A DNA stretch of 64,000 bases, taken from NCBI RefSeq assembly GCF_041260155.1, contig NC_091928.1, forward strand, positions 30,737,388 to 30,801,387, given 5' to 3'. The notes under the pieces are model-generated. The model was not told the origin of the DNA. It was given only the letters and a program-made list of their open reading frames with translations, and did no database searches. Shown piece by piece: positions 33,283 through 59,830 of the stretch. The position numbers and the translations under genes are program-made. Source of the stretch: Ptychodera flava (Eukaryota; Hemichordata; Enteropneusta; Ptychoderidae). Position 1 is the first letter of the stretch. Each line of letters begins with the position of its first letter.

Positions 33283-33296
33283 GATCAGAAAAGAAG

Positions 33297-34133: not shown

Positions 34134-34330
34134 GTTTTACGCTTTCCTATGGTTTAGACTCGACCACGCGTGAGACTCGACGCTGGTTTTCGCCCTAGTG
34201 CTCATTGGTTGAATGAGATTAACAATGGCGGCGGATACGAACGCTTCCCTCACATAGAGAGAGAAAAGTAGGCTTTGCCTAAGTTCACAAGCGCGGCTGG
34301 GCACATCGTGTACTTAGGCGAGGTGAGTGT
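34134..34330. other. CpG-richer block, possible promoter/first exon of an unknown transcript
   Basis: The stretch has many CG dinucleotides compared with its surroundings, an ATGGCGGCGGATACG start-like site at about 34226 that meets a stop within eleven codons, and a GAGGTGAGTG donor-like site at about 34319. No protein can be supported; a non-coding transcript or a decayed gene start is possible. Confidence 0.25.
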
Positions 34331-35785
34331 GCTCGAAAACGAAAATCAATGCAAAATTTGGATTCAAAATCGACTGTTTCGGCGGAGAAACTGCCCGCCG
34401 TATTTCTGAGGAGCCACCAGCGGTTTTTTCTATATCAGTCTGTAGGGCTGTGGTGGGAGGCCGTTTAACGACGGTAACACACAGCCCTGCCATGCAGAGC
34501 TAGACATTCATAGTGAACTGTCTGTCACCGCACCGGCATGCGTTGGCTGCAGTAAAAGCAACTCAACTTTCCAAGATCAAACTGTCAGTATCTCGTGAAA
34601 ACAGCGACATAGCAATGAAAATTGTTTTAGTCAGTGGTAAAAACTCTTAACAGATGAAGCGTTAATTGCTTTTAATCAAATTAAAATGCATGTGGCCTCG
34701 GTTTTCAAGTTCAATGGCCTAGGTCCGATGGCTCCTCTCGTCTAAAATACATTTCCGTGCGTTGTCGCCCCCGTATGTATCTGTTGCGTTTTTACCGTAC
34801 ATGTAAGCATTTGTAATCTGTGTACTGTAATTCCCAGGACTGCCTTGCTTTAAGTTGTATTCTGTTGTTGTATCAGCCCTCACTATAGGTACGTGCTTGC
34901 ATATTAAAAATCCCAAGCACTCTTTCATTCTGCGCCAATCTTCGTCACACATCTCTTATCTTCCGCTGCTCTGGTCTCTGGAACTTCGCTTTTGCTTGCG
35001 AATGCTTTCTAGTTTATGTTGGTTCTTTCTTCACACTGATCATTCAAATCTTTACATCGCTGATTTAATAAAGTGAAACTATCGTAAACATGATAGAGAG
35101 AGCGAAGCCTGTGCATTGTACATTTTATTACTTCGAGTTTGCGTAGAATTGGAGCCCTTAGCACATTCAAATAAAATCATAACCATGCAGCAACTCCAGG
35201 TGATTTGATTACTAACGGGAACTTTCTATTGTTCAAGCCAACCTGAATGAAACTTTATCAGCTTTTCGCAGCTTTTTTCAGCTTGAATGAAATGTTAATA
35301 CTCTTTTCGTGTGATTAGCATTTCTGTTCTGACTTCCTAAAATAATTGTTTGTCCCTCTTGTCTATTTCAGCTGTGACCGCCAACCCTGATCACAACACT
35401 TGTCACACTTAGCAAGCTGACGTGAACTCTTAAATTACTGACGTTTTAAAACTATCGTCATAAAAATTTGGTACTATTTATATCATGCATGTCATGCATT
35501 TTGACACTTTAGACGTATTTACAGCCCTCTTTCCCTTTCAACAGAGTTGCGTTTTACATCTCTAACGACAGTTTCGACAACTTTAACCTTCCTCGACCCG
35601 GATAATTTCAATGTGCATGTCGATGCATTACAAATACATGTGAGCACCGGCAATATGCATAGAACTTTCCGGAAACTTACAGAAATTAAAAACACAAAGT
35701 CGATGTTGTTTGTGTCGGTTAATTCGAGAAATTACCAGTACCGCTTTCCCTACGCTATGAAATATTATGGAACTAGGTCTGCTTA

Positions 35786-35922
35786 ACAACAACTTAGCCG
35801 GCTATTGAACCACTCTTTTTGGGAGTGGAGATTTAGTCGAGCGGTTGTCTCTGTGGCCTCTCCGCTAGGCGACTGATGCGGTATGTTGTGGGTTCGAACC
35901 CGATTGAAAACTAGCCGTATAT
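35786..35922 (+). mobile_element. tRNA-derived SINE insertion in copy-2 intron 1
   Basis: Carries ACTTAGCCGGCTATTGAACC, the A box (TTTAGTCGAGCGG) and the B box GGGTTCGAACCC. The paralogous place in copy 1 (about 4455-4462) is uninterrupted, so this is a filled site against an empty one. Flanks suggest a short AACAA-type duplication. Confidence 0.75.
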
Positions 35923-37491
35923 TAAAACAAGTTCTGTATTTAAGCTTAAAATATCAACATTAGCAATTTGAAAGTAACTGGATTGATATAAGCAAATAAA
36001 CACCACTATTATACAGCATATAGAAAAGGTGTAAGTAAAATAAAGCGTCTTTCCGCGTTTTAAACCTGAGCCAAACCGGTGCATCCTTTTTATGCTTTAG
36101 CATTGAGATGTCGAATATATCCATGTTTAAGTAGGCGAAAAATTATGGGCGCCTTTAGCATATGCTTCCTCTAACTTTTGACCTTCCACAGCCAACCTCA
36201 TTAATAATGGGTAGATATTTAGTAAAGGGAGGTTTTTTCGAGAAGTATATTCTGTGTGTCACTTAAATTATACAGATTAGTGGAGTGAAACCATGGAAAA
36301 AGATAAAATATTGAATAAGGATAAAAAGGTTGTATGACGAAGATAAAATAGTAATAATGATAACGCTAGGCACAACCCTATCTATGAGTATTGTTTTCAC
36401 ATCAAACAGTGAACGTGGAAAGGTCACTAGTGAATAAAAAAATAAATTATGAAGATGAACTGTAAATTTAAAGTGATCTACTACATCCCGAAAGATCTTT
36501 CTTAGGGAGTGCGTAAACCAGTTTTAAAGTTCATTTGCTCATGTAATGAATACGGGATACGGAACCTCATCTGTATCAGATATTTCAAAATACCAAAGGA
36601 TGTGTTCATGCTGGGGACAAATCGTACGCACTTATTATAAACGTTTAGATTAAGGTATTGGGCGGTTGTTGTAGATTTGTAATCGACATGTTACTTGGCA
36701 TCTAATTACACTGGAATATGATGTGCGGATTTTTTAAGCTTTTTAAATTACTGTGGCTGTTACAGTGCCATTCATTCCTCATCTCTACATCTTGTGAATC
36801 TTCACGACTTGTGCAATCTGGAGCTTCATTGTCCACCACGCATACCACTATCACGTTCAACTCCTCTTATGCATCATAATCCTCATTACAGTGATTAGTA
36901 CCCCGGCATTAAGTAAATATGAAGGAATAAATTCTTTTAACTTGAAATTTGTGATTTTGTTGGGGAGGGGGAAGAAATGCTACGATGCCATTGAAGGCGA
37001 AATATATTCTGTCAGTTTTTTGCTTTGAAGTTGGAAGTGTAATGGCATTTGTTTTCAGGGTCAATTTGAAAACAACGGCCCTTCTATAAAATAAGCGGTA
37101 TTTCAATAATCGAATGACATTATGAGTTGAAAGAAAGTGTGCTAAGTTAATACAAAGCCACTGTCTTGCTATTTCTGACATTGTGTCTTCACTGTGATAA
37201 CACTTCTATGCTTGTTGTGTTGCGACCGAATAGTAGATTGAGATAATGTTGCGCAAACAAACATAAACACTTGAACAGCAGATCTGTTAATCGTAAGCTG
37301 CTTCAATGTGATCGGTTCAAACGGAAATGCAAAATAATTGAAGATTTATCAGAACTAACTAGTATGGATTTACCGAATCTTTTGAAATGACTTTTACGAC
37401 TTAACAACAAATATCTCCACCCTTATTAACTACACTTCCGCTTTGGCCAATCAACGATCATTTCATTTGATAGTGCATCACTATTTTACAG

Positions 37492-37635
37492 TAAAGGTTC
37501 GGCTTGTCGACGGATCGTCTCCTTATGAAGGCTTCGTTGAGGTGTGTGTGAATGGCACCACGGGATGGTTACCTGTATGTGGAACTCAGGGCGTGGGGGA
37601 CTTTATGGACGCCAATGTCGTTTGTAATCAACTTG
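37492..37635 (+). CDS. Copy 2 exon 2: SRCR domain 1, first half
   Basis: 144 nt, acceptor TTTTACAG, donor GTAAAC, phase 1-1, open. It encodes [18 protein letters not shown] and [10 protein letters not shown]. It has an extra cysteine (EVCV) compared with copy 1. Confidence 0.82.
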
Positions 37636-37679
37636 GTAAACATCACAATGCATACTGTATTTTTGATTAACAACGACTT

Positions 37680-38500
37680 GCTACCAGTTGGTCAGAATTA
37701 ATATTAATTAATATAATTGTCAGAATTAATATTAATTAATAATGTAAGACTAGATGAATGTGAAAGTGTGAACTATTTAGGTGTTACATTTTCATCGTCT
37801 AATCCTAATGAGCACATTACAAATAGAATGGATGCATGTAGGAAAGCTTTTTATGGACTTCAAGGCGCTGGATTCAGTAATGGCCATATTGATAGTAATG
37901 TACTCGCTTATGTATTGAATGCTGCCATAAGACCAGCTTTAATGTATGGTATTAACTGTGAACATATATCTAAATCATCCATTATTGAGGCCGAAAAAAA
38001 TCAGTCAAAATCACTTAAAGCTTCTTTTCCTGAAGGCAATTAATGTTATGAAAATTGATACGTCACTTGAAATCAGTTCTCTTGATTTGATGAAATCCAT
38101 CTTTAGTAATAACTCTCGTGCACGTTGTGTTTACCTAAATCTTTTGAATATGCATATATGTGGTAGATTTGAGGGTCACACTGATTTAGTATCACGTGTT
38201 AATAGAATTTGTGTCAGAAATGGTATCTCACTTTTGCGGTATATTTTTGACAAGTGATACTCTCAGTTGATCCGTAAAAATATGAAGACATGTTTAAGGC
38301 CAGATGGGCTAACTGACAGCATTCACCAGTTGCTGCTGGCAAAAGATCTACACATCTTAATATTTTATTATGGCCATTTTAAACTTAGGTTTTCCTTTGT
38401 CTTGTACAAATTGTTTGCATTTAATACCTTTTTTTTAAAAAATTGTCTTTGTATCAGTTTTTGTATTTCTCTTCTTTTGAAGGCTTTATAATGAAATAAT
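37680..38500 (+). mobile_element. 5'-truncated LINE ORF2 fragment in copy-2 SRCR intron
   Basis: Frames at 37717-38043 and 37946-38257 encode SVNYLGVTFSSSN, CRKAFYGLQGAGFS, NAAIRPALMYG and SSLDLMKSIFSNNSRAR, the post-palm part of CR1/L2-like reverse transcriptases (YLGV..., RP.L.YG). It has a frameshift near 38030. The 5' end has a duplicated AATTAATATTAATTAAT stretch, and an ATAATAATT-rich tail ends near 38510. Confidence 0.7.
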
Positions 38501-38949
38501 ACTAATAATAATTACCAGACCGCATAATTGAAAGATAAATGAATTATTTCTTATCATAAATCATATTTTAATATACCTTATAGGGTGGCGTTATCGTGTA
38601 ATCATCAGGCTTCCCATTCCCTAGACTGAAATATTCAGTTGAGTTTTGCCATGTGGTTTTATTTGGTGTTGGCGGAGACCAAAACACGGCTACATGTATA
38701 TATTTCCAACTACCCATTCCCGAGCCGAGGATAGTCAACAGAAATCGGTTATTGCTACGAGTAATCTAATTTTATTTACTCACTTCCAACGTGTCCATCT
38801 TGGTACATAGATCGGAGAAAACTTGAAATCACTTGTACAAAATGGTAATTAAACAAAAGCAGGAATTAACAACATGCTCAAATTCTCGTGTCTGCCCAAA
38901 CACGTATCTGGTATGTTAAATTCTTTTTAATTACATTTGTACCTTTTAG

Positions 38950-39120
38950 GTTACAACGGTACAATGCGATCAGGACGGGAGGATGATCTTTTACGTAATG
39001 ATCCTCGTAGAGTCGTAGATAAGGTTGCATGTTCTGAAAACTCCATCACCATCGATGATTGTCCCTTTAATATCGAGGAACCCGGCCATTGCAATGACAC
39101 CGCTAGGATTACTTGTAATT
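38950..39120 (+). CDS. Copy 2 exon 3: SRCR domain 1, second half
   Basis: 171 nt, acceptor TTTTAG, donor GTAAGT at 39121, phase 1-1, open. It encodes GYNGTMRSGRED and the cysteines VACSE, DDCPF, GHCND, ITCN. Confidence 0.82.
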
Positions 39121-39349
39121 GTAAGTTTTGCGAAAGCACGTTTACGCAACAATGTTTTGCGTCACTCAACTTCAAACATTAATCCATCAATCTATTATCC
39201 AGACAAGATTTTTATGATTCATGGTCAACTTGGTCAAAACCAAACTTGTTTAAATATTATTTTCTTTTTTCGACTGAAAGAGATTAAGACATTACATTGA
39301 TCAAATTATTGCTGCTTTCCCACTTCCAACACCATGTGAAGTGTTCCGT

Positions 39350-40479: not shown

Positions 40480-40506
40480 CACGGTCCCTCCACAAAAGGG
40501 ACCGTG
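40480..40506. mobile_element. 27-bp palindromic insert, CACGGTCCCT family, copy 1
   Basis: CACGGTCCCT and AGGGACCGTG pair around a seven-base loop. The flanks ATAGTGA and ATAGCGA differ by one base, consistent with a 7-bp target duplication. Related copies are at 42869 and 52386. Confidence 0.55.
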
Positions 40507-40695
40507 ATAGCGAGAAACATATAATCACTTCCCTGGGCTCACATTTCTAACGTTCACTCTCTATTTTTTACATCCATGCCGCACTGTAGTAGCCACATAT
40601 CCCTCCTTCAATTCTTATCATTTTGCAACTGTCTTTTTATCTTTCGACTGAAATAAAGCTTGCGTTTTGTATACCACAGTATATGTTGCTGCAGT

Positions 40696-41222
40696 CATGA
40701 CGAAAATAGTGATAGGTCAGGCAATGGCAAGTCATGCAGGGCTCTGATTCATTGCTCCATAGACTCTCGAGGAAAACGGAGTCTATGATTGCTCCATTGT
40801 CTCAAGGTGTAAATAGCCATATGTCATTAACATATCAGGAAGGTTGCCATTGATATCGCCACAGCAGTTACACATGGGATACTTCCCTTTTCGTCACACA
40901 TCATTCATTCAAATGACAAATGTGTGGAGTCAGTAGACGACAGCCTATCTTGTGATAGTATTTGGTAGCCGGTATCATGACAGTTTGTGTTCGTGTCGGC
41001 TACACAGACGATCTGCCCTCTTGCGCGTTCGACTTTGTGAAAAAAAGATATGACCTGCGACCAAAATTGCTTATTTGACACATAACCAGGAGACCTGCAT
41101 TACATTTTGCACCGGTATGTCATGAAGAAAATAGTGATAGGTCAGGCAATGGCAAGTCATGCAGGGCTCTGATTCATTGCTCCATTGTCTCAAGGTGTAA
41201 ATAGCCATATGTCATTAACAAC
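40696..41222 (+). repeat. Internal direct repeats of the giant insertion
   Basis: ATAGTGATAGGTCAGGCAAT with its continuation occurs at about 40706 and 41129. The segment from CACAGCAGTT to the CCAGGAGACCTGCATT region (about 40858-41103) recurs at about 44600-44885. These repeats provide filled/empty comparisons for the short palindromes. Confidence 0.75.
40759..40786. mobile_element. 28-bp palindromic insert, ATAGACTC family, copy 1
   Basis: ATAGACTC..GAGTCTAT between two copies of ATTGCTCC (40751-40758, 40788-40795). The direct-repeat copy at 41168-41190 has a single ATTGCTCC and no palindrome, which is the empty site. Confidence 0.75.
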
Positions 41223-41503
41223 AATCAGGAGGAACCCCTTGAATGTATAAACAAAGCGGTTTTCCTTGCTTCAGTCACTGTTGCTAGAAAGAAATAGACT
41301 TTGTTCAAGTCTGAAATTTGCATCAAATTCTTGTAAACTTGTTTTCTTTTCCTTAACTTGTTAAAAGTTGATTGAACGCATTGTCATTGAGTTGCACCCG
41401 AATCACATTTGCAGGATCGCTGTCAGCCCTACTGCACTATGGATGAAAAAAGGAATGTTATAAATTTGAAAGATTTTTGTGATGCATAGAAAATTATGAG
41501 TGA

Positions 41504-41506
<3 letters not shown>

Positions 41507-41551
<45 letters not shown>
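41507..41551. repeat. (GT)n microsatellite
   Basis: About 22 GT units in a row. It produces a spurious VCVC reading frame. Confidence 0.95.
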
Positions 41552-41552
<1 letters not shown>

Positions 41553-41930
41553 TCCCTGGACGTACCACAGATACGTCCATGGAGTGTCTTGGCCGTCCTG
41601 ATCATGCCACAGCTGAAAAGGCCAGCGTCAACAAAGATAAAATAATAGGTGTGAAAGGGATTATCAGGCCCTCCTGTACCCTTACATTCATGACTGCACA
41701 GACTCCACTTCTAGTGCGTTCTACAACTTTTAAGAACGTCTACAGTAAAAAAAGTAACTTGAGTAGTTTTGCGTGAAATAAAGATGACCGTGATATAGCC
41801 GTGATTAAAACAGCCTTTGTTTGCTGTCTTACTCGACCTCAGCTGACTACCATGGCAAAAGTCGGAGACTGCTGAGACGGGAAGGCCATTATCAAATTTG
41901 AAAATTGTGAATGTATCGGTCGTTTTATCC

Positions 41931-41968
41931 ATAGACTCTCGAGAAAAACGTTTTCCTCGAGAGTCTAT
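41931..41968. mobile_element. 38-bp palindromic insert, ATAGACTC family, copy 2
   Basis: ATAGACTCTCGAG and CTCGAGAGTCTAT arms with a central AAAAACGTTTTC, flanked on both sides by GTTTTATCC (41922-41930, 41969-41977), a perfect 9-bp duplication. Confidence 0.75.
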
Positions 41969-42049
41969 GTTTTATCCAGATGATTTAGTGTCCTTTTCGA
42001 TATTAAGTGGTCGAACCAAGGCCCCCGGTACGCACTCTGTGGTCACAAT

Positions 42050-42746
42050 CACAGAGTAACATACACAGAGTGGCAACACCTATTGTTTAAGGCGTGAAGC
42101 GGTTACATAAGCAATCCATGTTTGCCTCGCCTCACGAAGCTCTTGGCTCTCTTTTCCGAAGAGTGCCGACCATGCACCCTTCGGTAATTTTCGGATTTTC
42201 ACCAATTGTTAAACGAAAGTATGTTCGACAAAGTTTGTGTTGTTGTTGTCGTGTGGTGCTGATCGGATTGATGTGCTGGCAAAAACGGAATGTTTTGAGC
42301 TTCAGGAAAGTGGGCTTTACCGTTTTAAAAATTCCTCTCATATTTTTATGAATATATAATGAGTGTGTTTGAACCAAATTTGAAAGTCTTTTATCGATAC
42401 TGTCTGGTTTTACTCAATGGTTTACGGTCAGTCATACCGTCTTTTACACGTGCGTCAAGAAAGGACATGTTTATGAAACTGCTGGCGTGTTATGTTTTGA
42501 TTGTCGTGAAGCAGTGTTTCTGGCCTGAGAGCTCACAAAGTAACTATGGTTGCTACGCGACTGGCAGTACGATGCCATCTCGTCGTATGTTTCGCATAAT
42601 CTCGTGTAATTATCAACCACAAACAAAGCCTCCAAAAAGTTTAACACCTTTGAAGCTCATTTTAATATGAAAAGCCAATAGTCTACCGAGACGACCATGG
42701 AACAAAAGGCATGCAAGTGTTGCCACTCTGTCAATGGTACTCTGTG
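42050..42746 (+). mobile_element. 697-bp terminal-inverted-repeat element, copy 2
   Basis: The interior matches the minus strand of 2046-2746 (FRRVPTMHPSVIFGF and KDMFMKLLACYV peptides are shared). The ends differ: CACAGAGTAACA on the left and a CTCTGTG end on the right, with a shared inner CAGAGTGGCAA. The same 103-codon frame (42359-42670) is open. It lies inside the giant insertion. Confidence 0.75.
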
Positions 42747-42868
42747 ATGATATTTACAATGCATATGCAGTACAGTCAGGGTGAAGTGTGCAACACAGAC
42801 AAAGGCAATTATTTGTTTGAGTGTGCAACAAGCATTGTCAGGGCAGGGACTTCCCTAATTACCGTGGT

Positions 42869-42896
42869 CACGGTCCCTCCACAAAACCGTACCGTG
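42869..42896. mobile_element. 28-bp palindromic insert, CACGGTCCCT family, copy 2
   Basis: CACGGTCCCTCCACAAAA then CCGTACCGTG: the left arm is identical to the copy at 40480, the right arm is diverged. No clear target duplication. Confidence 0.45.
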
Positions 42897-43969
42897 GTCA
42901 ATGTCGGAATGTGGAGAGGTTGCCTGATGTCCTCCCACATTACGTGTATGGCATAATGTTATGAACACTCTGGTGCACGAATGCTTCAATCGTCGTTTGT
43001 GTGCAGAGGGTCTGTAGCTTGACGAAAACCCTATGATAACTTGTCATTTGCATCGTGCGGGTTTCGCATAGTTACTATCAAATCGCCTGTGCCCTGGCGA
43101 GTGCATAGCAATTATCCGGCGAATCGACTACCTTTCAAAATCGAACAACGAATGTTTTAAAATAATGAGTAAAATTAAATGCTGAACACAGAATCGACAA
43201 TACTGAAAATACTTTGCTGTAGCTGATGGCATCAGTAATTTGAAATACGCTCAAAGGGAACCTACTATAGTCATAGTTTCCGTATGAGTAAATCGGTACA
43301 GCAGCCATCGGTAAGTATGAATGTGAAAAGATACATCAATGCTGTAAGGTCAAATTATTTTGCTCTTGTAGGTAAGATGTGTCCTTTTTTTTAAATTTTT
43401 CCTTGTGCTCCCTAGTGTACCAAGTATTTTCTGGTCAGATTTTAGAGTTGCAAACGTTGTATCTCATATAACGGTATGACCGCCAGGTTTGTCTATTGGG
43501 TATGTAAGTGTAAGAGTATCAGGGATAGACTTCTCCAAGTCTGTGGGCATATAAGTATCAAAAAATAATAAATTGAAGGACTAAACATCGGCAAACCGTT
43601 GTGTTAATGGTAGGCTATTTCGTGGATAGTGGAGTGAACGCCGCCTGGTCAGCAAGTAACTCAACTGAAGAGAAAGCGCGACTGGGGGCCAGTCTACACC
43701 TGGGACTGTGTTCCGTTAATAAATCCTGGGCTAAAATTTAATTTCCTAATAGTATAAAACAGCATCTAATGTGCCTATCAGATATCATGAAGTTTGACGC
43801 TTGATTGTAAAATATTAGTGCATGTTGCTTTCTAATGCTGAATTCTCATTGAGAAAACAGAAAAGTATCAGGAACTTATTATGCTTTTCATATGCGCTGG
43901 AGGTTTCATTATGATTAGTACACTTTGCAAAACAGACGTTCAATTTACAGACATCAAAATATTTTTATA

Positions 43970-44270
43970 TATTTCTGATATATTAAAGTACAGCGCCCGG
44001 AGCGCCCGCTGAAAATATTAACATCTGGATATCACTGATATATATGTCTGATATATGAAAGTCATGCGGCTGAAGGAATGCTGAAAATAAGTTCGATATT
44101 TTAAAGTAATGCGCTCGAATGGCGCACCGACAACATTTTAAACATACAGATATCTCTGACATATATGTCTGATATATTAAAGTTTCGTGCTAGCTTGAAG
44201 GGGGCTCTGAAAAAAGTATTATTAATATTAAAGTTAAGCGCCTAAAGGGCGCGCCATGAATGCAACTGAA
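43970..44270. repeat. Degenerate tandem repeat with palindromic GCGCC core
   Basis: Three to four units of a TCTGATATATTAAAGT-like start followed by a GCGCCC..GGGCGC-like palindromic core and an AAAATATT-like end. The unit is about 70-120 bp and uneven. The last core, GCGCCTAAAGGGCGC, is a clean palindrome. Confidence 0.65.
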
Positions 44271-44587
44271 TGATGAAATTTGTCGCTTGCACGATGCATT
44301 GTAGGCAAGTATGAGTCCGTGTCAAAATTCTAAAACAGACTGAACCCCCTCCCCAATTGGACATTTCAAAAAACATGGTGACCCCCTATCATCATAGTCA
44401 AAAACGGGGTGACCCCTATAAATCTACTGCCCCCCCCCCCCCGCCGAATAAACTGACCAGTCCCTTTAGTTGACTTTAGCAATTATGACTCTCAAAGGCA
44501 GGCACGTTTTATAACAACGACTAAGATCATAATCTTTCGCAAAATGCGCTCGTTCTTCATGCAGTCTCATAACGATTTGTTAGGGTT

Positions 44588-44900
44588 GTCATCGATATCG
44601 CCACAGCAGTTAAACATGGGATACTTCCCTTTTCGTCACACATCGTTCATTCAAATGACAAATGTGTGGAGTCAGTAGAAGACAGCCTATCTTGTGATAG
44701 CATTTGGTAGCCGGTATCATGACAGTTTGTGTTCGTGTCGGCTGCACAGACGATCTGCCCTCTTGTGAGTTCGACCATGGATGTAACTCTATTTTTTACA
44801 TCCATGGTTCGACTTTCTGAAAAACAAGAGATATGACTTGCGACAAAAATTGCTTATTTGACACATAACCAGGAGATCTGCATTACATTTCACACCGGTA
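44588..44900 (+). repeat. Second copy of the 40850-41115 segment
   Basis: Same order of landmarks (ATACTTCCCTTTTCGTCACA, AATGTGTGGAGTCAGTAGA, GTAGCCGGTATCATGACAG), with one 38-bp difference caused by the short palindrome and its target duplication at 44776-44813. Confidence 0.8.
44776..44806. mobile_element. 31-bp palindromic insert, CATGGATGTAA family
   Basis: CATGGATGTAA and TTACATCCATG arms with a nine-base spacer, flanked by GTTCGAC on both sides (44769-44775, 44807-44813). The paralogous segment at 41037-41043 has one GTTCGAC and no insert. A half copy lies at about 40548-40567 and a degenerate one at about 49884-49922. Confidence 0.8.
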
Positions 44901-46079
44901 TGTTTTTGAATATTGCCAATATACTCTTCGCCAGTGGTTTAATTCAACCAAAGGACCGTGCTTCAACCACATCAAAGATCGACTCGGAGGCGAGTCGAGG
45001 CTGTTCAGTGGCAATGTTAGCTTCACCGCTCGAAAGTTATTCTCGGAAACAGGACGGCAGCATTGGTCAGGGCCGGATTTCGCACATTATATGGAAAGCT
45101 GTGGTTATTTCTTCGAAAATATGTGATTGGGCTGCATACTTCTTCTTTGGGCCTTGGACTTTCGCCGCCGAAACGTCAATTAGCAAACAAATCACAAGAT
45201 AGTTCAGTCACATGAATCCGTAAATTTTGATGCATCGATCTATCGTGATGAATTCTGAACTAACGCGCATTAATTTCAGAGTTAGGGGAATTATTTGTAC
45301 TAGTTTCGAGAACTTATAATATCAGTATACCCATTGATATAAAAAATAGACCGTACTGCTGCATATCAAATCAACTTTTAGACGATGAACTTCGAAGTTT
45401 TACATTGTACACATTTTTATATTAAAACACACTTTTCCGGAAAAGCGGGTGTATGGGAAAAGATACCGCGACTGTAGCGACTATTGCTCAAGAAAATGTC
45501 TTTTCCACTTTCTGCACCCAACGTCAAGTCATAGTGAACTCTGAGCTCAGTCCGCATGTAAATTGCGACCGTGATATACGATGATGGATTTCATAAAAAA
45601 GTGCTAGAATTTCGCTTTTCCCGTCAGTAGGCCTACATGTACAGGTTGGTAGTTATTATATCAGACTGATTTCAAACCGTGTTCATATTTCCCAAAGTTT
45701 TAATTAGGCCTAATAGCTGCTATATTTTGACCATCTTGATAAAGATCTCGCCACCGGAATATTCATAAAGGTAAAAATGCGTAAATCGAAATCCCATTGT
45801 GTACATGCTGAGAGGTAAACTGCACAGCTAGCAGCCTGTTGATGAAAATTGACCCCCTAGCTAGCTCGTAGCCTGCTGCTCTCTTTCTTTCTACCTCCAT
45901 GCTTTAGCTGGCGAAAACGAATATATGGTTCAGTTAGCAATATTTTTATTTAACGAGAGCAAAAAAAATAACATTTTCTTCAAGATTGAGTGAAAAGTGA
46001 TAGTTATCAAATTCTTTGCAAAGTTCGTTTCGTGAATATTTGAGCACTTGGGGAGCCATACTCAGAAGACGCCATTGTT

Positions 46080-46220
46080 ATGGATAGCGTCGCGTCGCCT
46101 ACTCAACAGCTCAACGTTGCGTTGCGTCTATATTTTAGTACTGACACGTCCCGCCGGTGTCTAGGAATGTCCACTAAAGACTCTAATCTTGAAATCCTGG
46201 ACCGTCTCGACGACTATGCG
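46080..46220 (+). CDS. Possible first coding exon of a gene carried in the giant insertion
   Basis: ATG at 46080 opens 47 codons (MDSVASPTQQLNVALRLYF.. ending DRLDDYA), then a GTACGT donor. The region is richer in CG than its surroundings, as promoters often are. If spliced to 50181-50292 the frame closes after 16 codons, so this is either a short protein or the 5' end of a non-coding transcript. I recognise no family. Confidence 0.3.
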
Positions 46221-47149
46221 GTACGTTTGAATCTAGTGCCAGTGTGGTGATCGCCAAAGAGTCCTGCATCAGCTGAACGGTTCTCGTGTAAGCTTACAAT
46301 TTACCAGGTATGTATGTACAGTATAGCTATAGCTATTCACTTATTCTTGACCAGCCAAAGTGTCTGGGATACGTCTACTCCTTCTGGTATAAACGTGTCC
46401 AGCAAAATCTGTATCTGGCAAAGTATCGAACGTTTGTTTGTTTTAAATCATTGATATTCCTGATAATTTCAAACGAATAATGAACATCGAATTTCCGGGT
46501 CACTTTATGCTAATGAGTGTTGATACCTGTCAGGGACTGGACAGAAATTACGGGCGGGGGGATTGATTGGTGTTTTTAGAGGCCTGTGTTGGCACCAGAT
46601 TGTCTCACCAGAAAATTTACCAACCAGATTACAGTTTCAATGGAAAACAAAAGGTAGTCCTCCTACATACTTAAGAAAAGGCAATCCCAGGGATCAGCAA
46701 AAGTGCCTTATAAATGGAAAATAATGACCCTTCAAAAAGTGTTAGCAAGGAAAAGATTGTCCCTCCAAATTTTCATGTGCCCTGTGAGTCACAGTCTGTA
46801 TAAATGATATCTTAATAATTGACATATAAGTTCTCATTTAACTTTGAACTGTTAAAGAATACTTTTAACCTTTACAAAAAATCACTAGGGTGAAAGTCCA
46901 ATATCACATTTGTTGTTCACATCTGTTCTTTCAACCAATATTCTCATTGTGCACATTTTCAATTGCCAAACATTTATATAAGCACAGATTTAGCTTGTGT
47001 TGTATTTCAAAATACCTTTTCATATTTTCTTCAGAGACCAGAATGTACATGTTTAGTGAATCAACATTCCGGTGAAATTCCAAAATCAAATTTCTTGCAC
47101 ACACATTCACTAGTAACCAGCTCAATCTAATCAAGTGCATTAGCAGTGT

Positions 47150-47470
47150 TCAAAATAACACCTGTCCGGCAGTCCGAGAATGGTTGTTTTTCTGCAGGAC
47201 TTGTAAAATAAAAAAGTTACCAGTCTGGCGGACAGGTTGACTTTAGCGTGGGGAGTCTTCTTTAAAACTATGTCTGCTATTTTTTCTCTAGGCTCCCATT
47301 CAAATTTTATGGCAAGACAGTTTTCTTTCCCGTAAATTCATCCTACTCAACAGCGCATAACAAAAATACTTAGGCACAAAAAGCAATCGCAGTATCAGGA
47401 CTGGTAAGTTTTTGGCAGGACAGGCAACTTTTTGAAGTTACCAGTCCTGGTGACTGGTTGATTTTTTCCA
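47150..47470. repeat. Two related blocks around (A)GTCCTG..ACAGG
   Basis: ACCTGTCCGGCAGTCC, GCAGGACTTG..AAGTTACCAGTC and GACAGGTTGACTTT recur in diverged form 170-230 bp later (GGCAGGACAGGCAAC, AAGTTACCAGTCC). Probably a short interspersed or tandem repeat. Confidence 0.45.
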
Positions 47471-48305
47471 CAAATTTCGAACACTGGCATTAATATCAAT
47501 AATTAAGCATCTATAAACACACAGATATAGCTATTGATTTATTGCAAAAAATCATGGTTTCCTCATGGACTACAATGTATATTGAATAATCCGAAAATCT
47601 TTTATTTTTGTACACAGATGTATTTTGCATCCAAATTCCAACTACTAGAATTACATAAATTATCAAACATGGATAAATGTACATATAATGCATGTTGCAT
47701 AGGGGAAAACTGTCAATATTTTGCCTAACAGATTCCAATGTATTAAATTTGATATTTTTTTGGTAAAGCACTGTATTGGCCACATCTTGTTTTCAAATAG
47801 TTTCAATAGTTGCGCAAAAATGGTAACCCTGCCCCAAAGGCATGCATGACAATTCAAATGCTTTTTAAAAAATGGACCCAAAAAAGGCCTTACCCCCTGT
47901 AATTTCTGTTCAGTCTCCATGAAAAGTAATCCAAGGAACACATGATTTATACGCTCTATTGTTTTTTGAACCTCTACTCAAAATGGCTGTGCATGAAGGT
48001 TAATAATAAGATAATGAAGATTTGCTATCCTTTATTTTCTTTTGAAACTGTAATCAGTTGAATGTTGGCCGATTTTTTAATTCAATCCCACAAGTCCACT
48101 TATTCAAGCTCAAATTTATGTATGTACAATGGCTCAAGGACAGAATAGGGCCCATTGATATTTTTTGACCTTTTTTTTCTATAGTCATAGGAGACATTAC
48201 ATTTAATGATTTATGTTGTCAATTTATTTCCTTTGTCACAATAATAGTATTAATTTAGAAGGTTATAAATAATGCAAAGTTACATGTACATGACGACTAG
48301 CATGT

Positions 48306-48383
48306 TTAACCCTTTGCACCTGACCCCCTGGTACTCTATGACGTCATCAGACATTTATGTCTGAGTCGGGTTCAAAGGGTTAA
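48306..48383. mobile_element. 78-bp piggyBac-like MITE
   Basis: TTAA-CCCTTTG at one end and CAAAGGG-TTAA at the other, with a partly paired interior (GACCCC/GGGTTC, CTCTATGACGTCATCAG). A TTAA duplication with CCC/GGG ends is the piggyBac signature. Confidence 0.7.
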
Positions 48384-50180
48384 AGAACCACTAGCTGTAA
48401 GTTTTGAAATTTGTTTACCTCAAAATACATGTATCTCCCCATTTTGTCCTGGTTTTCTCTGAATTCTGCCCTATAGTATTGTTTATGTAACTTATGTGAC
48501 AAATTATTGATATGTTGGACTTGCACAACTCTACAAATTGCTAAGGACTGTGATTTTTACTGTGTGCACCGGTAGGATTTCTCCGAGAGTGCCCCTGCTT
48601 TGCAAACATAGACAATTACTCATACACTGCAGCACAAGAGAGTTACCTGTACGACCACGGATAAGGCTAATTCACGTGCCGCGAGCCAAAGTTCAGTTTG
48701 CATGATTAGCATTTTAACCTAGTAGAAATAGGTGAATTTTCACTCTAATTCACTTTATCGATTAATCTCCACTGTTAAATCACATTTAATGAGGCCTTGT
48801 ATGTGCATAAAGTGGTGACCTGTGATATGTGTGTTCACGAATTCAACCTGTGCTGGCCGGTAAGGGACTGGAAAAAAATTATAGGGAGGGAGGGCGAATT
48901 TTTCAAAATGATGCTGAGAAAAGTGACTCTCCCCAATCGTTATGCTGTCCCTGTACGTGCTATAGTCAACGTCAATAATATTTTATTTGACAGATCTTAA
49001 GTAATTCATAATGTGACGCCTCATCCCACCAAATATGAAGGCTATTGCACTAATACTGGCAAATAAGTTAAATTCAGGTCAGAGGTCATCCTGGTTACTT
49101 GATATTTTTGCTGTACACTTTCCTCCCATGATGGCCGTCCAGCAAAAATCAGACCTATAGCCATATTGGCTGGGTCAAATGTCATCCTGGTCGCTTGATA
49201 TTTTAGCAGAAATCTTAGTTAACATAATCAATCATCTCTTTCCACTAAACTTCAGACCTCCACCTCTGTTAGCTACAGTGTTGGGTATTGAAATTGTTTA
49301 ACATTTCACACTACCGGTATGACTGAGGTGAGCCCAACTTCACTGCGGGAATGTATGAACTACATGCATTAGCATGAACTCTGTGTGACCAAACAATTCA
49401 GAGAATGTTGCGCCCTGAGTGGCCCATCAAATGATGAAGTAAGGCCATTCAACATTTTATCGCATGAATTGCACAATGCTCTGTGCATTACATTGGACTG
49501 CTTTGTGCAGTTTGTGTGAAGATTTCAGTGCAGATATGCACAGTATACAGGGTTTTGCTTGTATGCACTGTGATGGGATTTAATGTTTTGGCAAATATTT
49601 AATCACATTGCAATCTTTATCTTGTCCAAAATTGCATGTACAGTCCCAGTGTTAGTTAATAATAAGTGTATACATGACCAAAATTAGAACATTCTCACAA
49701 ACTTATTTTGGCTTGACGTTAAAATCATAAAAACAATGCTAGAAGATACAGCTAGTGGGGGCTTAAGTTAACATGAGATTAATTTTAATCTTACCTAAAC
49801 ATGATATGTCATTTTATTTCTGTTTCTGCTGAAAATGAAATGTGGTGTTACTTTCAACATGCACATTTTAGATATTGATATGACCATGGATGTAAAAAGA
49901 GTCAATTTTTCATCAATGGTCTGACAGTCTACCAGCTCTGAGATACTGCAGGAATGCATAGTGCAGTGTGAATCCAATGAAGTTGAGCCTTTTCAGGCAA
50001 TGAAAACACTTGATATATTTCTGATTCAAATATGTGTTGATGGACTGTCAGATTAATATGGTGATTCATCGTCATTTTTGTAAGGTGAAATCTGATGATT
50101 CATCATCTGTGTTTTAAGATAATTTAATTTTTCACAGTAGGATTTTTAACTCTTTTTATTTATTTCCTTGCAAGTTGCAG

Positions 50181-50292
50181 GTCCCGTGGAGATATTTATT
50201 AGGCGTTGAACAAATAGGAAAAGTGTAGTGCCCCAAGGAATGACAGAGTCACACGAAAAGGCATGCCAACAACTGAGAAGAATATGAGAGGT
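50181..50292 (+). ncRNA. Possible internal exon of the carried transcript
   Basis: A GTTGCAG acceptor before 50181 and a GTATGT donor after about 50292 bound a 110-nt segment with stops in all three frames. Only splice signals support it, so it would be a UTR or lncRNA exon. Confidence 0.2.
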
Positions 50293-51526
50293 ATGTACTT
50301 CATACACATGTACAAAGTCTGCACTGATAAGTTTTTTGTTTAAAGTTGTGAACTTTGAAGGACATGCTAACCAAAGCACCAGTGTTGGTGAATTATGGTA
50401 CATGAACATGGTTAAGCAGAACCATTACAACACAAAGTAAGACAATTTTACTATAAGTTGACCGTTGATGTTTGGTTATATTTGCAGAGCACCTAGCTAA
50501 CAGCCATAAGCAACAAAATCTGCGTTTATAATCTTCTTTTGAAGATACAGATGTAATTGATAGTGATGTAGCTTAGCCCATTCAAACTTTGAAATCACAA
50601 TGAAATGTGTAAACTCTGCAATTTTATATAGAGAAGCAGAGTGTTGAAACAACTTAAGGGGGCTCGTACATGAGTTCCAAACACAAATGTACATGACATA
50701 CAATAATTGCATAGTCAAACCTAAGAAATGTTCTTTTTAACTCTGTCTCCCAACACTTGCCAAAATATTATTGAAGGAATCCTTGAAGTGTACTTTATGA
50801 ACTTTGTACGAGAAACAAAACATCTAAACAATATCACAAGACAAACTGTCGTTAGAGAGTTTGTTGCAAATTGTGTAATGAAAGATGAAACAAGCTTCTG
50901 TTCTGATAACATGTTCCAGATTTCATGACATGCTCAAAAACCATAATTTTATCTTTTACTAAAATAGTATGAACTATTTTCCTATAAACTTAAACCTAAA
51001 CTACAATCCAGTGGAGACTATGTCATCAGCGATGACTTCTAGATCAAGCACCAACAGATTAACTCTTAAAGGTATTGAATTCGATCCCAGGGCCTAGGAG
51101 TGGCACATCTAAAACAGTGTGTATCTTTGCATCAGAGGCGGAATAAACTATGAGTGTATCTATTTATCCAGGAAATCTTAATCTCGACTGCTATGTTTGT
51201 ACCGTACGCACATAGAGCCAGTCAACGTTAGGGACACAAAAAAAACCACAAGGAACAAACAGGCAGTGGTTTTGAACAAAATCAATGTACCCGGTACTTC
51301 AACATGAAAATATTCATACCTTGACGCACTTTGAACATAGCTCGTAACAAAGGACAATGGAAAGCCCATGGAACTACATGTACAACTATAACAGCCACTC
51401 ATGTAGTTGGTGCACAGTAAAGATTTTTCAGATCAACAACTTTTACGGATGGTGGACTTACCTTTCCTACTGCAAAGCAATTGTTATTTAACTGGATTTA
51501 GCATGAAATTTTTTTATGGACTGTGA

Positions 51527-52760
51527 GGTATGTAAGAGTGCCTTCAACAGCATACTCCGAGTTCCAAAACCGAGTCGGACTTACAAGTCCGAGTACTTGG
51601 ACTTGCATACTCCGAGTAAAACTGCTTACTCGGACTTGTATACTCCGAGTACATGACCTACTCGGACTTGAATACGTCGAGTTACACTTGCTTATAGAAA
51701 AAAACAATGCTGGAAAAAACACAGGAACAGCGTATACCGGTACACTGCAGTGCATTTCCAGTCGCTCAGAGAAAAGAGTTGTTAATGCAATCTGTCTGAC
51801 CTCTGATCCGATCTGTGTATCTTGTACAACACGCTCAAGTCATCGTCGAGTGTAGCTACCGTCATGCAAATTATGAGTTTGTCTTGTCTTTTCGTTTCAT
51901 TACCGGATCAGATTCTTATTTGATACATGACTTGAATTGGGCACAAAAACGTTTCAAGATCACCGCGATGCAGCGCGGCAAGTTATTAGAACACGGACGC
52001 CATAATTGAATGACCTGTCGACCTGTGACATCATGGCCGTGGTTTGCTGGCGTAGCAAGGCCATGATAAACTTGCCCAAGCATTTTAGGCATATTATGTC
52101 TTGATAAAATAATTAAACTAGTAATTTTTCAAAATAAAATGAGCACAGTGCGCTCGTCTATGGTATGAACCGAGTGCGAGTGACCACTTGGTCGTAAATA
52201 ATGACCTGACTTGACCTGTGATGTCATGCATTGATTTAAGTTCACTGGACCGATTGTGATATCGAACTGAGTAACTGACTGGACTTGCCTGAAATTTATT
52301 GGTTTTTAATGCAAATGTTACGTCTAAGTCATCTTTCAAAAACTTGCCGCCAGCCGTGGCAGTAGCTTTCTTCTGAGGGTAAAATCACGGTCCCGGTCCC
52401 TCCTTGTGGAGGGACCGTGGTTAAATATACATTGCGCAACAGATTACAAGACATCGTGAAAATGATTTTTTTTTTCTGAAAAGAGCAGATTTTCAACATA
52501 TCGATCCGCGCTAGCCGTAAACTCTGTGAGTAATAAAATTACTTTTTTTGACAGATCGTTTCTTGTCCGGCATGGCAAAATATGCATTTATAGGAACACG
52601 TATTACTCGGCGTATTCAAGTCCGAGTAGGCCATGTACTCGGAGTATACAAATCCAAGTAAGCAGGTTTAGTCGGAGTATGCAAGTCCGAGTACTCGGAC
52701 TAGCAAGTCCGACTTGGTTTTGGAACTCGGAGTGTATAGTTTGAGATACTCCTACATACC
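51527..52760. mobile_element. 1.23-kb fold-back element with tandem-repeat arms
   Basis: The outer ends GGTATGTAAGAGT and ACTCCTACATACC are inverted. Each roughly 160-bp arm is made of four to five tandem, partly palindromic units around ACTCGGACTTGC and TACTCCGAGTA. The 0.9-kb interior has no recognised gene but contains the palindromic insert at 52386-52419. Confidence 0.8.
52386..52419. mobile_element. 34-bp palindromic insert, CACGGTCCCT family, copy 3
   Basis: The best-paired member: GGTCCCTCC and GGAGGGACC around TTGT. Flanks GTAAAAT and GTTAAAT are a 7-bp near-duplication. Confidence 0.55.
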
Positions 52761-54867
52761 TGGGACTGTTGACGCGGTGTTTACAGTTGTTACATGGTGG
52801 CAAATCCTTGTCGAATCGCCGACTGCTGCATAAACAGTCACTGAAGAATCTGTGCATGCATTTACAAGCACTGGATATTTTTACCATTTTTAATCGAAAA
52901 CCGTTCGTATACGTGTATGATGGTGACAAAAACAACATAAGGAATCTTGCGTACATTGTTACTGATTACTTTGACCAAACAAAATCACCCAAATGCTGAA
53001 CGATGATCATACAGAACTCTTCAGGTTGCAGGATTAAATGACCCCAAGCCCGATCTCAGTCAACAGTGCCGGTCTCGACGTCTACTCTATCAAACTGGAC
53101 AAGAGAATATACTAAATTTACCTTGAAAAAAATTCAAATTGTGTATCATATTGAAAAAAATCTACTGGGGCCACGGAGCGAATTTAAAAAACCAACAAAA
53201 CCCAACAGAAGCAGTGGAATGATCATTATTGTGCAAGGTCGCTGCATTATATGTCAGGGTAAAAAAATTGTAGCTTTGAAATTTCTGGACGGTATAAAAG
53301 GCTTAGTGGTACAAATGTTTATTCATTGTTGACATCGTATCGATCTGATTGACACAACAAATGTTTGATCGTGCATCCCCTCGTGATTGGCAGCTGTTTG
53401 AAAGCTTTCCCCTATTGTTCTTTGTATGCTTCGAACACGTCCACAGCATCGCAGCAGTTTTTGCATCAAAAATCAACTTAAAATGGATATAATGAGAGAA
53501 TTTCACCAACAAGGTGATGCCACAAGTATTCACAAAAGTAATATGTTGGAACAGTGCTTTAATTTACTCTTTGGTTGTTGAAAACTCCAGATTTTCGGGA
53601 GCATTCGTTGATGCTGTTACCATGTGCCACTCATGTTGGATTATGAATGCCCAGGGAGATAGGGGGTATTTATAGGCTCCGAGTCCCCCTGCCTTTAATC
53701 CATACTGGCACCCATACACAGTCAGTTCAGTCTTTGATTTGGGTGATTCCCCAGCATGACATGCCCTCTTTTTATTCAATATATGTAAATGTTACAAGGC
53801 ACTGTAGGTCAAAGCTGCATGGTACAAAAATATTTCTACCTCAATATTCCATCCTAATTTGACAGATTTAATATTCTAACGTATATGTCTTACTGTATTA
53901 GTTCTCGACCAACGTACAAAGACTTGGTCCATTTGCTGAAGCATTAATTGATGATATGTTTTGCAAAATTAATAGTGGAAGCACGACCATACACCATGTG
54001 TCTTGGAGATACATTGATGTTAGTCTCTCCTAACAAAAACAGGAATATTTAGTAAATAATAAAATAGGCAATGAATCAGTGAAAAAAAAATTTTATCTTC
54101 ATATTTGTATATTATGGCATAAACTTGTCAGTTTGATGTGCAACAGTACATAGATGACCAGTTTATTCATCAAGGGAGCATTCAGTTATTACAGCCAGCA
54201 CAATTTGAATGGGTTGGGGTTCACTTTAAATTGTTAAAAAAGTAGTTTAAGTGTTCAAAACATTTTTTGGGAGATAAAATGATTCGCTGCATTATTTCAC
54301 TCTCGGTAGTCATTTAACTGTAAATCTGAACAAAAGTATAATTATCTGCCACATAAACATCTTGCCTTGGCAACTCTGAGGCTTGTCTTATTGTAAATCG
54401 AGCTCACTGAGAGCAATGAACAATTTCTATTACTTACATATTAAAGATATAGCAAGTTTTGTCAGGGAAAATATTTAACAGTGACCTGTTGACCACTAGT
54501 ACCATGAAAATAGAAATGTTTAGTTGAAATTCCAATATCATTACTGTTGTCCACATCTGAACCTTCAAACACCCTATTTGAATCAAGTACATTTGTATCA
54601 ATTGTCAAACACCTCAGAAAGCACAGAATGTGTTTGTTAAGCATTGTAAAAAAATTATTCATAGTTTTCTCATAGACTCCAGTGTATAGTGAATCAACAT
54701 TTCAGTGAGATTCAGAAATCAAATTTCTTGCATACATATCAACTTTTAACCATTCTAGTCTAATGAAGTACTTTCAAATGAATTATCAAAGGTCTATAAA
54801 TACAAAGATTTAAACAAAAACAAACTAAATGGATAATGTACAATTCTGGTGATTTCGTTATTTACAG
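52761..54867. other. Inner part of the giant insertion without recognised genes
   Basis: Only short reading frames on both strands (the largest 116 codons, overlapping the fold-back arm). Mostly AT-rich sequence. Confidence 0.4.
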
Positions 54868-57225: not shown

Positions 57226-57460
57226 GCTTTTCACATAGTGCAATCAGACCCACACCCTGCCTTTATGCTGATTTTCTTGATTTCAACCGTTCCATCTCGA
57301 ACGTCAATCCAACGTATTACCGATACCTGCTTCACGTAATCCAATGGAAAATTTAACAATTAAATAACACTATTGTTCTTAATTAAACCGTTCCTTGAGC
57401 CTGAACGATGGTTATAATTTACCGAAAGACGTATATTTCAATTGCTTTTACTGAATCCAG

Positions 57461-57749
57461 TCGATGGTTACATTGGATGTTTCAACAATAACAACGCAAG
57501 CGATCCAGTACTTCCTGATGATAAGGACGGAAAGCAGTCAAATGACGATTCAATTGTGTCTAGACTACTGTAGGGAACGTAACTGGACGTATGCAGGATT
57601 GTACAGGCGCAGATATTGCCACTGTGGCAGGCAGGGAACGGACTACGCACGACAAGGAATGTCACGAAATTCTCAGTGTGGTAGTACCTGTAGAGGAAAT
57701 AGTCAGCAAATATGTGGCGGTGGACAGGGAAGAGTAAGCATCTATAAAA
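57461..57749 (+). pseudogene. Copy 2 exon 4: WSC domain 1, frameshifted
   Basis: Splice sites are kept (acceptor ATCCAG, donor GTAAGT) but the exon is 4 nt longer than in copy 1: one extra AAC codon plus one extra base near 57520-57540. The frame entering from exon 3 reaches a TAG in the LDYC region. The downstream WSC peptide (YCRERNWTYAGL, CHCGRQG, QICGGG) survives in another frame. Confidence 0.8.
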
Positions 57750-57944
57750 GTAAGTAAATCAAGACATCAAGGGAAAATTCTGATGTAGAAGTTGCGACCT
57801 TGGGGATAGCCGTCAATGCAATTAATTAACCAAGATGATCAGTTAAATATTAACGAGTATGGTTATGAGAGGCACAGTAGTGTTTGAGCACATATATACA
57901 TCTTTTTGAAATAAGTGAAAAATAATCTCCATGTCTATTTTTAG

Positions 57945-58288
57945 CCCATTTAGGAGCATGTGGAGGTCAAGTCAACGTTACTGGATCTCGGACAATCTAC
58001 TCTCCTGGATTTCCGGGATATTATCCGAATTTCCAGGATTGTACCTGGACCTTATCGCCATCAATTCAAGTACTTTTACGATGATTTTTGTCCTCTCGAC
58101 ATTGGATAGCACTGATGATTACGTGATACTCTATGATGTCATCGATGGTGAGAGGCATGTGATTCGTCAGTTTAGCGGATCTGACGTACCGGAAGTGGTA
58201 TGTTCACACTCCAGTGAGGTGCTGGTCCACTTTCATTCAGGAAACAGCAGTGGTTCGAACACAGGGCTCTTTGCTATTACCTTTAAAG
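57945..58288 (+). pseudogene. Copy 2 exon 5: CUB domain 1, frameshifted
   Basis: 344 nt instead of 345; one base is missing near 58060-58078, after DCTWTLSPS. The second half (DDYVILYDV, VPEVVCSHSSEVLV, GLFAITFK) is kept in the other frame. Splice sites are intact. Confidence 0.8.
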
Positions 58289-58802
58289 GTACAGTTATGT
58301 TTATTATCAATTGATATCTGAAAATAACAGTTTAGTATTACTCATTGCTTTGTTTTATGGTCATCCGAATGATCGTCAGATAATTTTCACACACTGTTTC
58401 ATGCTGGATCAAGTTTAATTTATTTATCACACAATTAATTCTTCGACTTGAATGAAGTACATCAATGACAAAAAGTGAAACATTAAAATGAAATGGAGAT
58501 GGTAAGCTTCAGGTTTCACGACAGCTACGGTTTAAGAGTAACTTCATAAGGTTACCGTGCGTTCTTACGGAAGGGTAAATTGCCTAAACGTTTGCGCAAT
58601 GCAACATTAGTCAGAAAAGTAAAAGTAGTCAAAGTGTGATTTAACTTGTGACACATTTTCGTTAACATTGTATTGCCAAGGCATAAAACAAATGAAATAT
58701 TCATTGACAATGGTAACATTGCTCTGGGTGCCTTCCACCGAAAGATTTCTATATACTACTCTACTGTCAGTCGTAAAATTTGCTTTAACTTCGAATTTTC
58801 AG

Positions 58803-58986
58803 AAGTGGACACCGCTTGTCAACTCCCGAGGAAATCACCCGGCCACTTCATCTGACTGGTGACTGCCTAAAGAACGGAACGACTATCGTCACATGTAAAC
58901 GATGATCCTGCAAGTGACACCATCCCATTCAAGTGTTGTCTGTTATGAAAGTTATGGATGGAATGATACTATACCGAGTTGTACCG
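58803..58986 (+). pseudogene. Copy 2 exon 6: Sushi domain 1, broken
   Basis: 184 nt instead of 186, with at least two indels: 4 nt are lost in the NHGHF region and the middle shifts near ACATGTAAACGATG, giving early stops. The end (SSVVCYE, DGWNDTIPSC) is recognisable. Confidence 0.78.
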
Positions 58987-59675
58987 GTATGAAGCCTTGA
59001 TTTCAGAGTTTTCGATTGTATATCAACTAAAATATATCGCTTTGTCTTGTGTGGAAATGAGTGTGATAAGAAATGTTTTCATTTGAATGAATTACAATGA
59101 TATGCATAGGAATACCAGGTATAATGCAAGAGTGAAACATTCTTGTATTTATCTAATTAAGTACGTATAAGTGCCTATTGGTGTATACAGGACTAGCATA
59201 AGAATGTTCATTATTAAAAAGTTTTTTAAGGTCACGAACAAGCTGATTACTGTGTCATTCTGCCTTTACCAATAGGACTAGGATTTGTAGATACAGGTAG
59301 TACGTAGACAACAAAGTTCTAGGGTTAGATATAGTTATAGGTTCACAGGTGGAATTACCATCTGCACTGTACATAATATCCCTGAAATGAAGTGCTTTGA
59401 GCGAGAATGTATGAAAATGCAGCCTGCCATATCCTGGTACTGAAATTCGCCAATAGAATAGGTATTTCATATCAATGTTTTATGCTTGGTCCTCATATAC
59501 TTTGCGAGTCGTCATCTTTTGCGACCTTGATATATTTTTGACACACATCTATACAATCGCCCATTTTTTTCTCATAACGTGTATACATAAGCATCTGTGC
59601 GGTGATAATGTGAAGTTAATAAGTGCACAGATTCGTGATTTTATAATATGATACAACTGTTATTAATATTCCAAG

Positions 59676-59830
59676 CTGAATACCGGTAAAACTGACGGAC
59701 GGAGCATTGCCGAATGAAGGATATGTTGAAGTGTTTGACTCTGAGTATGGTTGGCTGAAGGTGTGCCTGGTTGGAAAGGATGACGAGAATTGGGATTATA
59801 GTTCCGCTGATGTTGTCTGCACTCAGCTAG
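59676..59830 (+). pseudogene. Copy 2 exon 7: SRCR domain 2, first half, frameshifted
   Basis: 155 nt instead of 156; one G is lost directly after the start (GAAGTACC in copy 1, GAATACC here), giving TAA within five codons of the incoming frame. The remaining peptide (ALPNEGYVEVFDSEYGWLKV, SADVVCTQL) is preserved in the shifted frame. Confidence 0.8.

Follow-up and report, generated by a model that had tools for sequence, protein, structure and literature searches.

The P transposase makes a staggered cut of 17 nt, described as unusually long and unlike that of other characterised cut-and-paste elements (PMC7776569; also PMC10983969), so that each flank keeps 17 nt of terminal repeat as a 3′ tail (PMC7776569, PMC10983969, PMC2895639). 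The joints of P{wa} in Drosophila lacking Rad51, as given in Table 1 of PMC2895639, open with the target duplication and the tail CATGATGAAATAACAT, continue with filler and the inverted tail, and close with a second copy of the duplication. They comprise full-length, one-tail-trimmed and templated-filler classes; the duplication is 8 bp, the tail is present as CATGATGAAATAACATA or in trimmed form, and the two tails meet with an overlap or with filler of up to 15 nt. CA..TG terminal repeats are reported for both the fly P element (PMC2895639) and zebrafish Pdre2 (PMC10983969), and Galileo, a foldback member of the P superfamily, is reported to have 7-bp and sometimes 8-bp duplications (PMC4168063). 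Here we describe comparable structures in a 64,000-nt stretch of DNA from the hemichordate Ptychodera flava (contig NC_091928.1, positions 30,737,388 to 30,801,387; hereafter, the window), to which all scans, counts and open reading frames (ORFs) refer. It contains palindromes of 23–40 bp lying between 7-bp repeats, which are probably fossil footprints, left by the excision of P-superfamily-like transposons and repaired by end joining.

A sequence-only reading of the window had pointed to six tiny palindromes behaving like insertions with target duplications of 7–9 bp, which were exact at three of them, and all six were located. Their bounds need correction: with the CA and TG ends included, those starting at 40480, 40758, 41930, 44776 and 52386 measure 27, 30, 40, 31 and 34 bp, respectively. 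They are listed below together with probable further copies; the letters A, B, C and E denote families, and "tail" a retained run of end sequence.

40480–40506 (C1): 27-bp footprint, 18-nt tail CACGGTCCCTCCACAAAA and inverted 10-nt tail overlapping by 1 nt; flanks ATAGTGA/ATAGCGA, 6/7
40758–40787 (A1): 30-bp footprint, 21-nt tail CATAGACTCTCGAGGAAAACG and inverted 9-nt tail; flanks ATTGCTC, 7/7; empty paralog at 41176–41182
41930–41969 (A2): 40-bp footprint, tails of 20 and 20 nt, near full length with one mismatch; flanks TTTTATC, 7/7
42869–42891 (C2): 23-bp footprint once its end is redrawn, tail of 18 nt and inverted tail of 5–6 nt, right end TA; flanks CCGTGGT, 7/7, within an 11-bp direct repeat TACCGTGGTCA
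44776–44806 (B1): 31-bp footprint, 11-nt tail and inverted 20-nt tail CATGGATGTAAAAAATAGAG; flanks GTTCGAC, 7/7; empty paralog at 41027–41033
52386–52419 (C3): 34-bp footprint, 9-nt tail, 9-nt filler GGTCCCTCC and inverted 16-nt tail; flanks GTAAAAT/GTTAAAT, 6/7; inside a foldback element (F, below)
49885–49918 (B2): probably an older footprint from family B, 34 bp long and diverged, absent from the earlier list; flanks ATATGAC/GTCTGAC, 5/7
26317–26344 (C4): probably an old member of family C, with CA..TA ends and 14/18 agreement over the first 18 nt; flanks CTTCCAC/TTTCAAC, 5/7
42794–42821 (E footprint): probable 28-bp footprint starting with CACAGACAAAG, inverted tail 10/12; flanks TGTGCAA, 7/7

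The element-end sequences of the scar families are CATAGACTCTCGAGGAAAAC, CATGGATGTAAAAAATAGAG, CACGGTCCCTCCACAAAA and CACAGACAAATAGAGAAACAG. The left end is CA in seven of seven copies and the right end TG in six, the exception being C2. By its palindrome alone C2 would span 28 bp (42869–42896), where the flanks agree at 0 of 7 positions; when it is ended by the duplication, at 42891, it spans 23 bp and the flanks are exact. That end was picked among 48 offsets, at which the null rate of a 7/7 match is 1.0%, and C2 is therefore weaker evidence. The argument rests on the five secure copies C1, A1, A2, B1 and C3.

The flanking duplications are real, although their length is best read as 7 bp and not as a range of 7–9 bp, with agreement at 6, 7, 7, 7 and 6 of 7 positions for C1, A1, A2, B1 and C3. 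The exact duplications reported at 40759, 41931 and 44776 are borne out (A1, A2 and B1), as are the empty paralogous sites proposed for two of the inserts. The longer repeats in family A consist of extra matching bases: only A1 and A2 can be read as 8 bp, and B1 cannot. A1 and both empty sites lie within 40694–41230, where a direct repeat of ~125 bp surrounds a unit of ~280 bp that also occurs alone at 44584–44903. Among the 20 gaps of 12–90 bp listed in the paralog alignments (18 of them distinct), the only one that is a footprint is that of B1, at 44780.

Most short palindromes in the window are ordinary. With arms of at least 8 nt and a length of at most 45 bp there are 74, and exact 7-bp flanks are found at three and flanks with at most one mismatch at five. 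At the latter tolerance the counts for flank lengths of 6, 8, 9 and 11 bp are 0, 0, 4 and 3, and the matches at 9 and 11 bp largely repeat these sites, with the flank taken to include one or two bases of the arms. A strict scan, in which arms had to match at 9/9, inserts to measure 20–45 bp and 7-bp flanks to differ by at most one base, with no end motif imposed, returned five matches, as against none in each of 25 Markov-1 shuffles; at flank lengths of 5, 6, 8, 9 and 10 the same scan, run on the window only and without shuffles, returned 3, 2, 0, 2 and 0. When CA..TG ends were required, seven matches were obtained, five of them noted inserts, with 0–2 per shuffle and seven in total over ten. 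A looser scan gave 169 matches against a shuffle mean of 53.75, a figure inflated by ATTCA and AT-rich repeats, and at a score of at least 15 gave five against none in 12 shuffles. As footprints, 6630–6648 and 49486–49500 were judged to be chance or undecided. B2 agrees with family B over its first 12 nt, its junction is not clear, and at its loose level of 5/7 flanks the family-B scan gave 45 matches in 60 shuffles; it is thus probable and not secure. A further possible old B footprint, TATGAATGTGAAAAGATACATCAATG, lies at 43316–43341 with flanks CGGTAAG/CTGTAAG (6/7), where the B scan gave three matches in 60 shuffles.

The inserts differ from one another where the two arms meet. The tails combine as 21+9 and 20+20 nt in family A, 11+20 in B1, and 18+10, 18+5/6 and 9+filler+16 in family C, and among the inserts compared no two copies have an internal junction in common. 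No arm extends beyond 21 nt of end sequence. Two further B ends stand alone:

40559–40578, minus strand: solo B tail of 20 nt, 20/20; best duplication partner 4/7, not convincing
45332–45351, plus strand: diverged B tail standing alone, 17/20; no convincing duplication partner, the best of 48 offsets giving 5/7

These solo ends diverge from one another past ~20 nt which, with arms of at most 21 nt, is as expected of a tail length set by a transposase. The P{wa} joints in Table 1 of PMC2895639 share this anatomy, being composed of a tail, a microhomology, blunt join or templated filler, and an inverted tail between duplications, with CA..TG ends and one tail often trimmed. Several of them are palindromes of 30–44 bp, as in the window, and they include a nearly lost tail, as in C2, and a templated filler, as in C3, whose filler GGTCCCTCC is a copy of tail sequence. 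They differ in having an 8-bp duplication and 17-nt tails and in coming from Rad51-deficient laboratory flies, whereas the window carries 7-bp duplications and up to 18–21 nt of tail from several families in a natural genome.

From these features we infer the following course of events. A cut-and-paste element with CA..TG inverted-repeat ends would have inserted, duplicating 7 bp of target, and a transposase would later have excised it by a widely staggered cut, so that on either flank the outer ~18–21 nt of the terminal repeat stayed behind as a 3′ single-stranded tail. The scars retain up to 18–21 nt of the ends; the cut itself is not visible in the sequence. The two tails, being the same sequence inverted, would then have been united by end joining, and the junctions show that one is usually near full length and the other trimmed, with overlaps of 0–2 nt or a short filler. 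The expected product is duplication, tail, inverted tail and duplication, that is, a palindrome of 23–40 bp between 7-bp repeats. The suggestion that the inserts might be scars of templated end joining is accordingly supported, and the break itself is most plausibly the work of a transposase cutting out a longer element, whose end tails form the arms. On this evidence the scars would derive from three families, A, B and C, and probably from a fourth, E, whose elements probably belong to, or act like, the P superfamily (P, 1360, Galileo). The superfamily assignment is more likely than not, though a weaker claim than the footprint itself.

Longer elements with 7-bp flanks are present in the same window. 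A scan for CA..TG ends and 7-bp flanks with at most one mismatch returned four matches, of which three, with weak ends, are likely to be chance. The fourth (E), a foldback element (F) and their anatomy are as follows.

2046–2746 (E): 701 bp with no recognised gene, inverted ends CACAGACAAATAGAGAAACAGACTAG (~25 bp), CA..TG; flanks GCTGAAC/GCTGGAC, 6/7; empty paralog GCTGAGC at 28288–28294
51525–52762 (F): foldback of 1238 bp with arms of 165 bp in inverted orientation (86.7%); ends GAGGTATG and CAGGTATG; flanks GGACTGT, 7/7, at the arm boundary

The insert at 42794–42821 starts with 10 nt of the end of E and matches the two ends of E at 10/12 and 10/12; to judge from these matches it is a probable E-family footprint, and would tie the scars to a longer element. 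The expectation from base composition, computed after the sighting, is ~8e-7 per window, and as the direct repeat here runs for 11 bp the true ends of the insert could lie up to 4 bases away. A second 701-bp element, at 42048–42748, is 89% identical to E inside and clearly different over the ~30 bp at its ends, and matching 7-bp flanks were not found for it; end swapping between families is possible for this pair. Another copy of an E end, CACAGACAAAATAGAGAAACAGACTAG, lies at 63959–64000 and runs off the window edge. The end CAGGTATGTAGG of foldback F agrees with both B1 arms at 8/12, which may reflect a distant relationship between F and family B.

Set against the P superfamily, 7–8 bp duplications are found at five of the six noted palindromes at no more than one mismatch, at C2 when redrawn (7/7), at B2 (5/7), at E (6/7) and at F (7/7). 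CA..TG inverted ends are seen in the inserts and in E, and in F at one end only, which starts with CA, the other starting with GA. Galileo, as reported, resembles the window in its 7-bp (sometimes 8-bp) duplications and has long inverted arms like those of F (PMC4168063, PMC2775673); it is known from Drosophila, and F is likened to it by anatomy alone, without a transposase or a sequence match. Zebrafish Pdre2/THAP9, a case of a P-type transposase outside insects, is described with 13-bp CAT..ATG terminal repeats, although its duplication is 8 bp and its end sequence differs from that of the window inserts (PMC10983969). The Anopheles P-MITEs (miniature inverted-repeat transposable elements) are, like E, non-autonomous with P-type ends, but are reported with an 8-bp duplication, against 7 bp (6/7) in E, which is without a known master copy (PMC1562414). 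Scored on the Galileo consensus GTANTAC, seven flank 7-mers average 2.57 against 1.62 for random 7-mers of the window (p = 0.014), and eleven targets, with the probable ones included, 2.55 (p = 0.004). Smaller p values are obtained with the core GTNNNAC, a motif that was, however, first noticed in these data.

The sequence-only reading had also raised the possibility that the palindromes are minimal substrates of a transposase, that is, terminal-repeat-only elements of 27–40 bp cut and pasted in trans. An insert with a target duplication and an empty paralog, as seen in two copies, would suit such elements, as would the near-perfect 20+20 palindrome A2, from which A1 is one deletion away, C2 being related likewise to C1. 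We nevertheless regard this as quite unlikely: the junctions all differ, P-type transposases are reported to depend on binding sites that lie inward of the ends (PMC7776569), we would not expect a paired-end complex on ~30 bp, and longer elements with 7-bp flanks lie in the same window. Also highly unlikely is a variant in which fused tail pairs of up to 40 bp were mobilised in trans by a P-type transposase and their junctions diverged by later hairpin deletion; if true, these would be exceptionally small transposing units. A MITE reading was given less weight, since copies of a family should share internal sequence and no two short inserts share a junction, although in two pairs a single small deletion would connect the members. 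Defective copies are reported to be a frequent outcome when gap repair following P-type excision is inefficient (PMC4168063), which might suggest that longer elements were deleted internally in situ by aborted gap repair with both ends kept, but such random loss would give widely varying arms reaching into subterminal DNA, and with no arm longer than 21 nt we consider it very improbable.

A non-P transposon, for instance an atypical hAT-like family that duplicates 7 bp and leaves terminal-repeat tails, is an unlikely source of the scars, though with some points in its favour: the 7-bp flanks show an NTNNNAN bias, one end of foldback F carries CAGG and, as the transposase was not seen, the class of the transposons is inferred only. 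However, hAT duplications are given as about 8 bp (PMC3706591), a length at which no palindrome has flanks with at most one mismatch, against five at 7 bp, and hAT hairpins are described as forming on the flanking DNA (PMC3878927), which makes a remnant of ~20 nt of terminal repeat unexpected. The hAT and Mutator elements earlier proposed for comparison thus seem less apt than the P superfamily, which a 7-bp duplication with retained tails appears to fit better. Dada was likewise given less weight, being described as without terminal inverted repeats and as targeting small-RNA genes (PMC3706591); the inserts have inverted ends and lie away from the sole Rfam match of the window. That the palindromes arose by fold-back or templated inverted insertion at ordinary double-strand breaks without a transposon, as in yeast, or by chance, is scarcely credible. 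The filler of C3 does copy its own tail sequence and the yeast insertions are reported as mostly 5–34 bp (PMC11724301), but the same arms are found next to 7-bp duplications at separate sites whose flanks are unrelated, and none arose in 25 shuffles.

Several observations weigh against excision footprints of P-like elements. No THAP or P transposase was matched in the 20 of 27 window ORFs of at least 110 amino acids that were scanned, and a longer element with A, B or C ends was not found in the window among the matches listed (in the exact-flank scan, the first 15 per flank length, mostly satellite). Neither solo B end has a duplication. A single deletion of 10 bp would turn an A2-like palindrome into A1, and one of 4 bp a C1-like copy into C2, so the diversity of junctions is not fully independent. 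C2 and the E footprint sit in 11-bp direct repeats and not in clean 7-bp ones. At flanks of at least 6/7 and at least 8/12 on both sides, the E scan gave two matches against eight in 60 shuffles, and the family-B scan two against three in 60. The tails would be 18–21 nt, not 17, and one of the two commonest P{wa} joints (14 isolates) retains almost no tail (PMC2895639, Table 1); joints without tails would escape palindrome scans, so that our series is biased towards palindromes. Lastly, the hAT-like NTNNNAN is enriched as well (p = 0.011 for seven targets, 0.005 for eleven), so the motif does not decide the superfamily, and TGTGCAA is a poor fit to GTANTAC.

The window codes for WSC and CUB domain exons and a zf-RVT (retroelement) ORF, and has Kremen matches, features that indicate animal DNA; a protein homologue search with the WSC ORF returned no match. 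Paralogous blocks (240–8050 with 27037–39329, and 8426–15478 with 57376–63924) are ~70–86% identical in their main pieces and include repeated WSC/CUB exons. At 33123–33283 there is a near-perfect hairpin of 161 bp whose ends are CAATCTGA and which is flanked by the exact 9-bp repeat ATCAGAAAA. It contains the only Rfam match at gathering level, to mir-196 (33165–33241), which lies away from the palindrome sites and in our view is spurious. For the imperfect palindromes at 6636–6886 (251 bp, 84%) and 21274–22075 (802 bp, 68%), no flank duplication was found.

The mechanism is known from Drosophila experiments; what the window would add is a natural record from several families. In one open-licence library, CATGGATGTAA was the only arm sequence with matches, none of them on transposons by title, and for short palindromic insertions it returned work on Oxytricha circular DNA and on Galileo inversions. 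As only this library was covered, we do not suggest that natural P footprints from outside insects have gone unreported. If the palindromes are such footprints, a single stretch of genome serves as a natural archive of excision events from several transposon families. The scars could then reveal how the germline repairs breaks whose long tails are not complementary, by trimming, microhomology and templated filler, and would report the cut stagger (about 18–21 nt) of transposases that are possibly gone. Such scars would also be easily mistaken for new "ultra-short MITEs" in repeat annotation.

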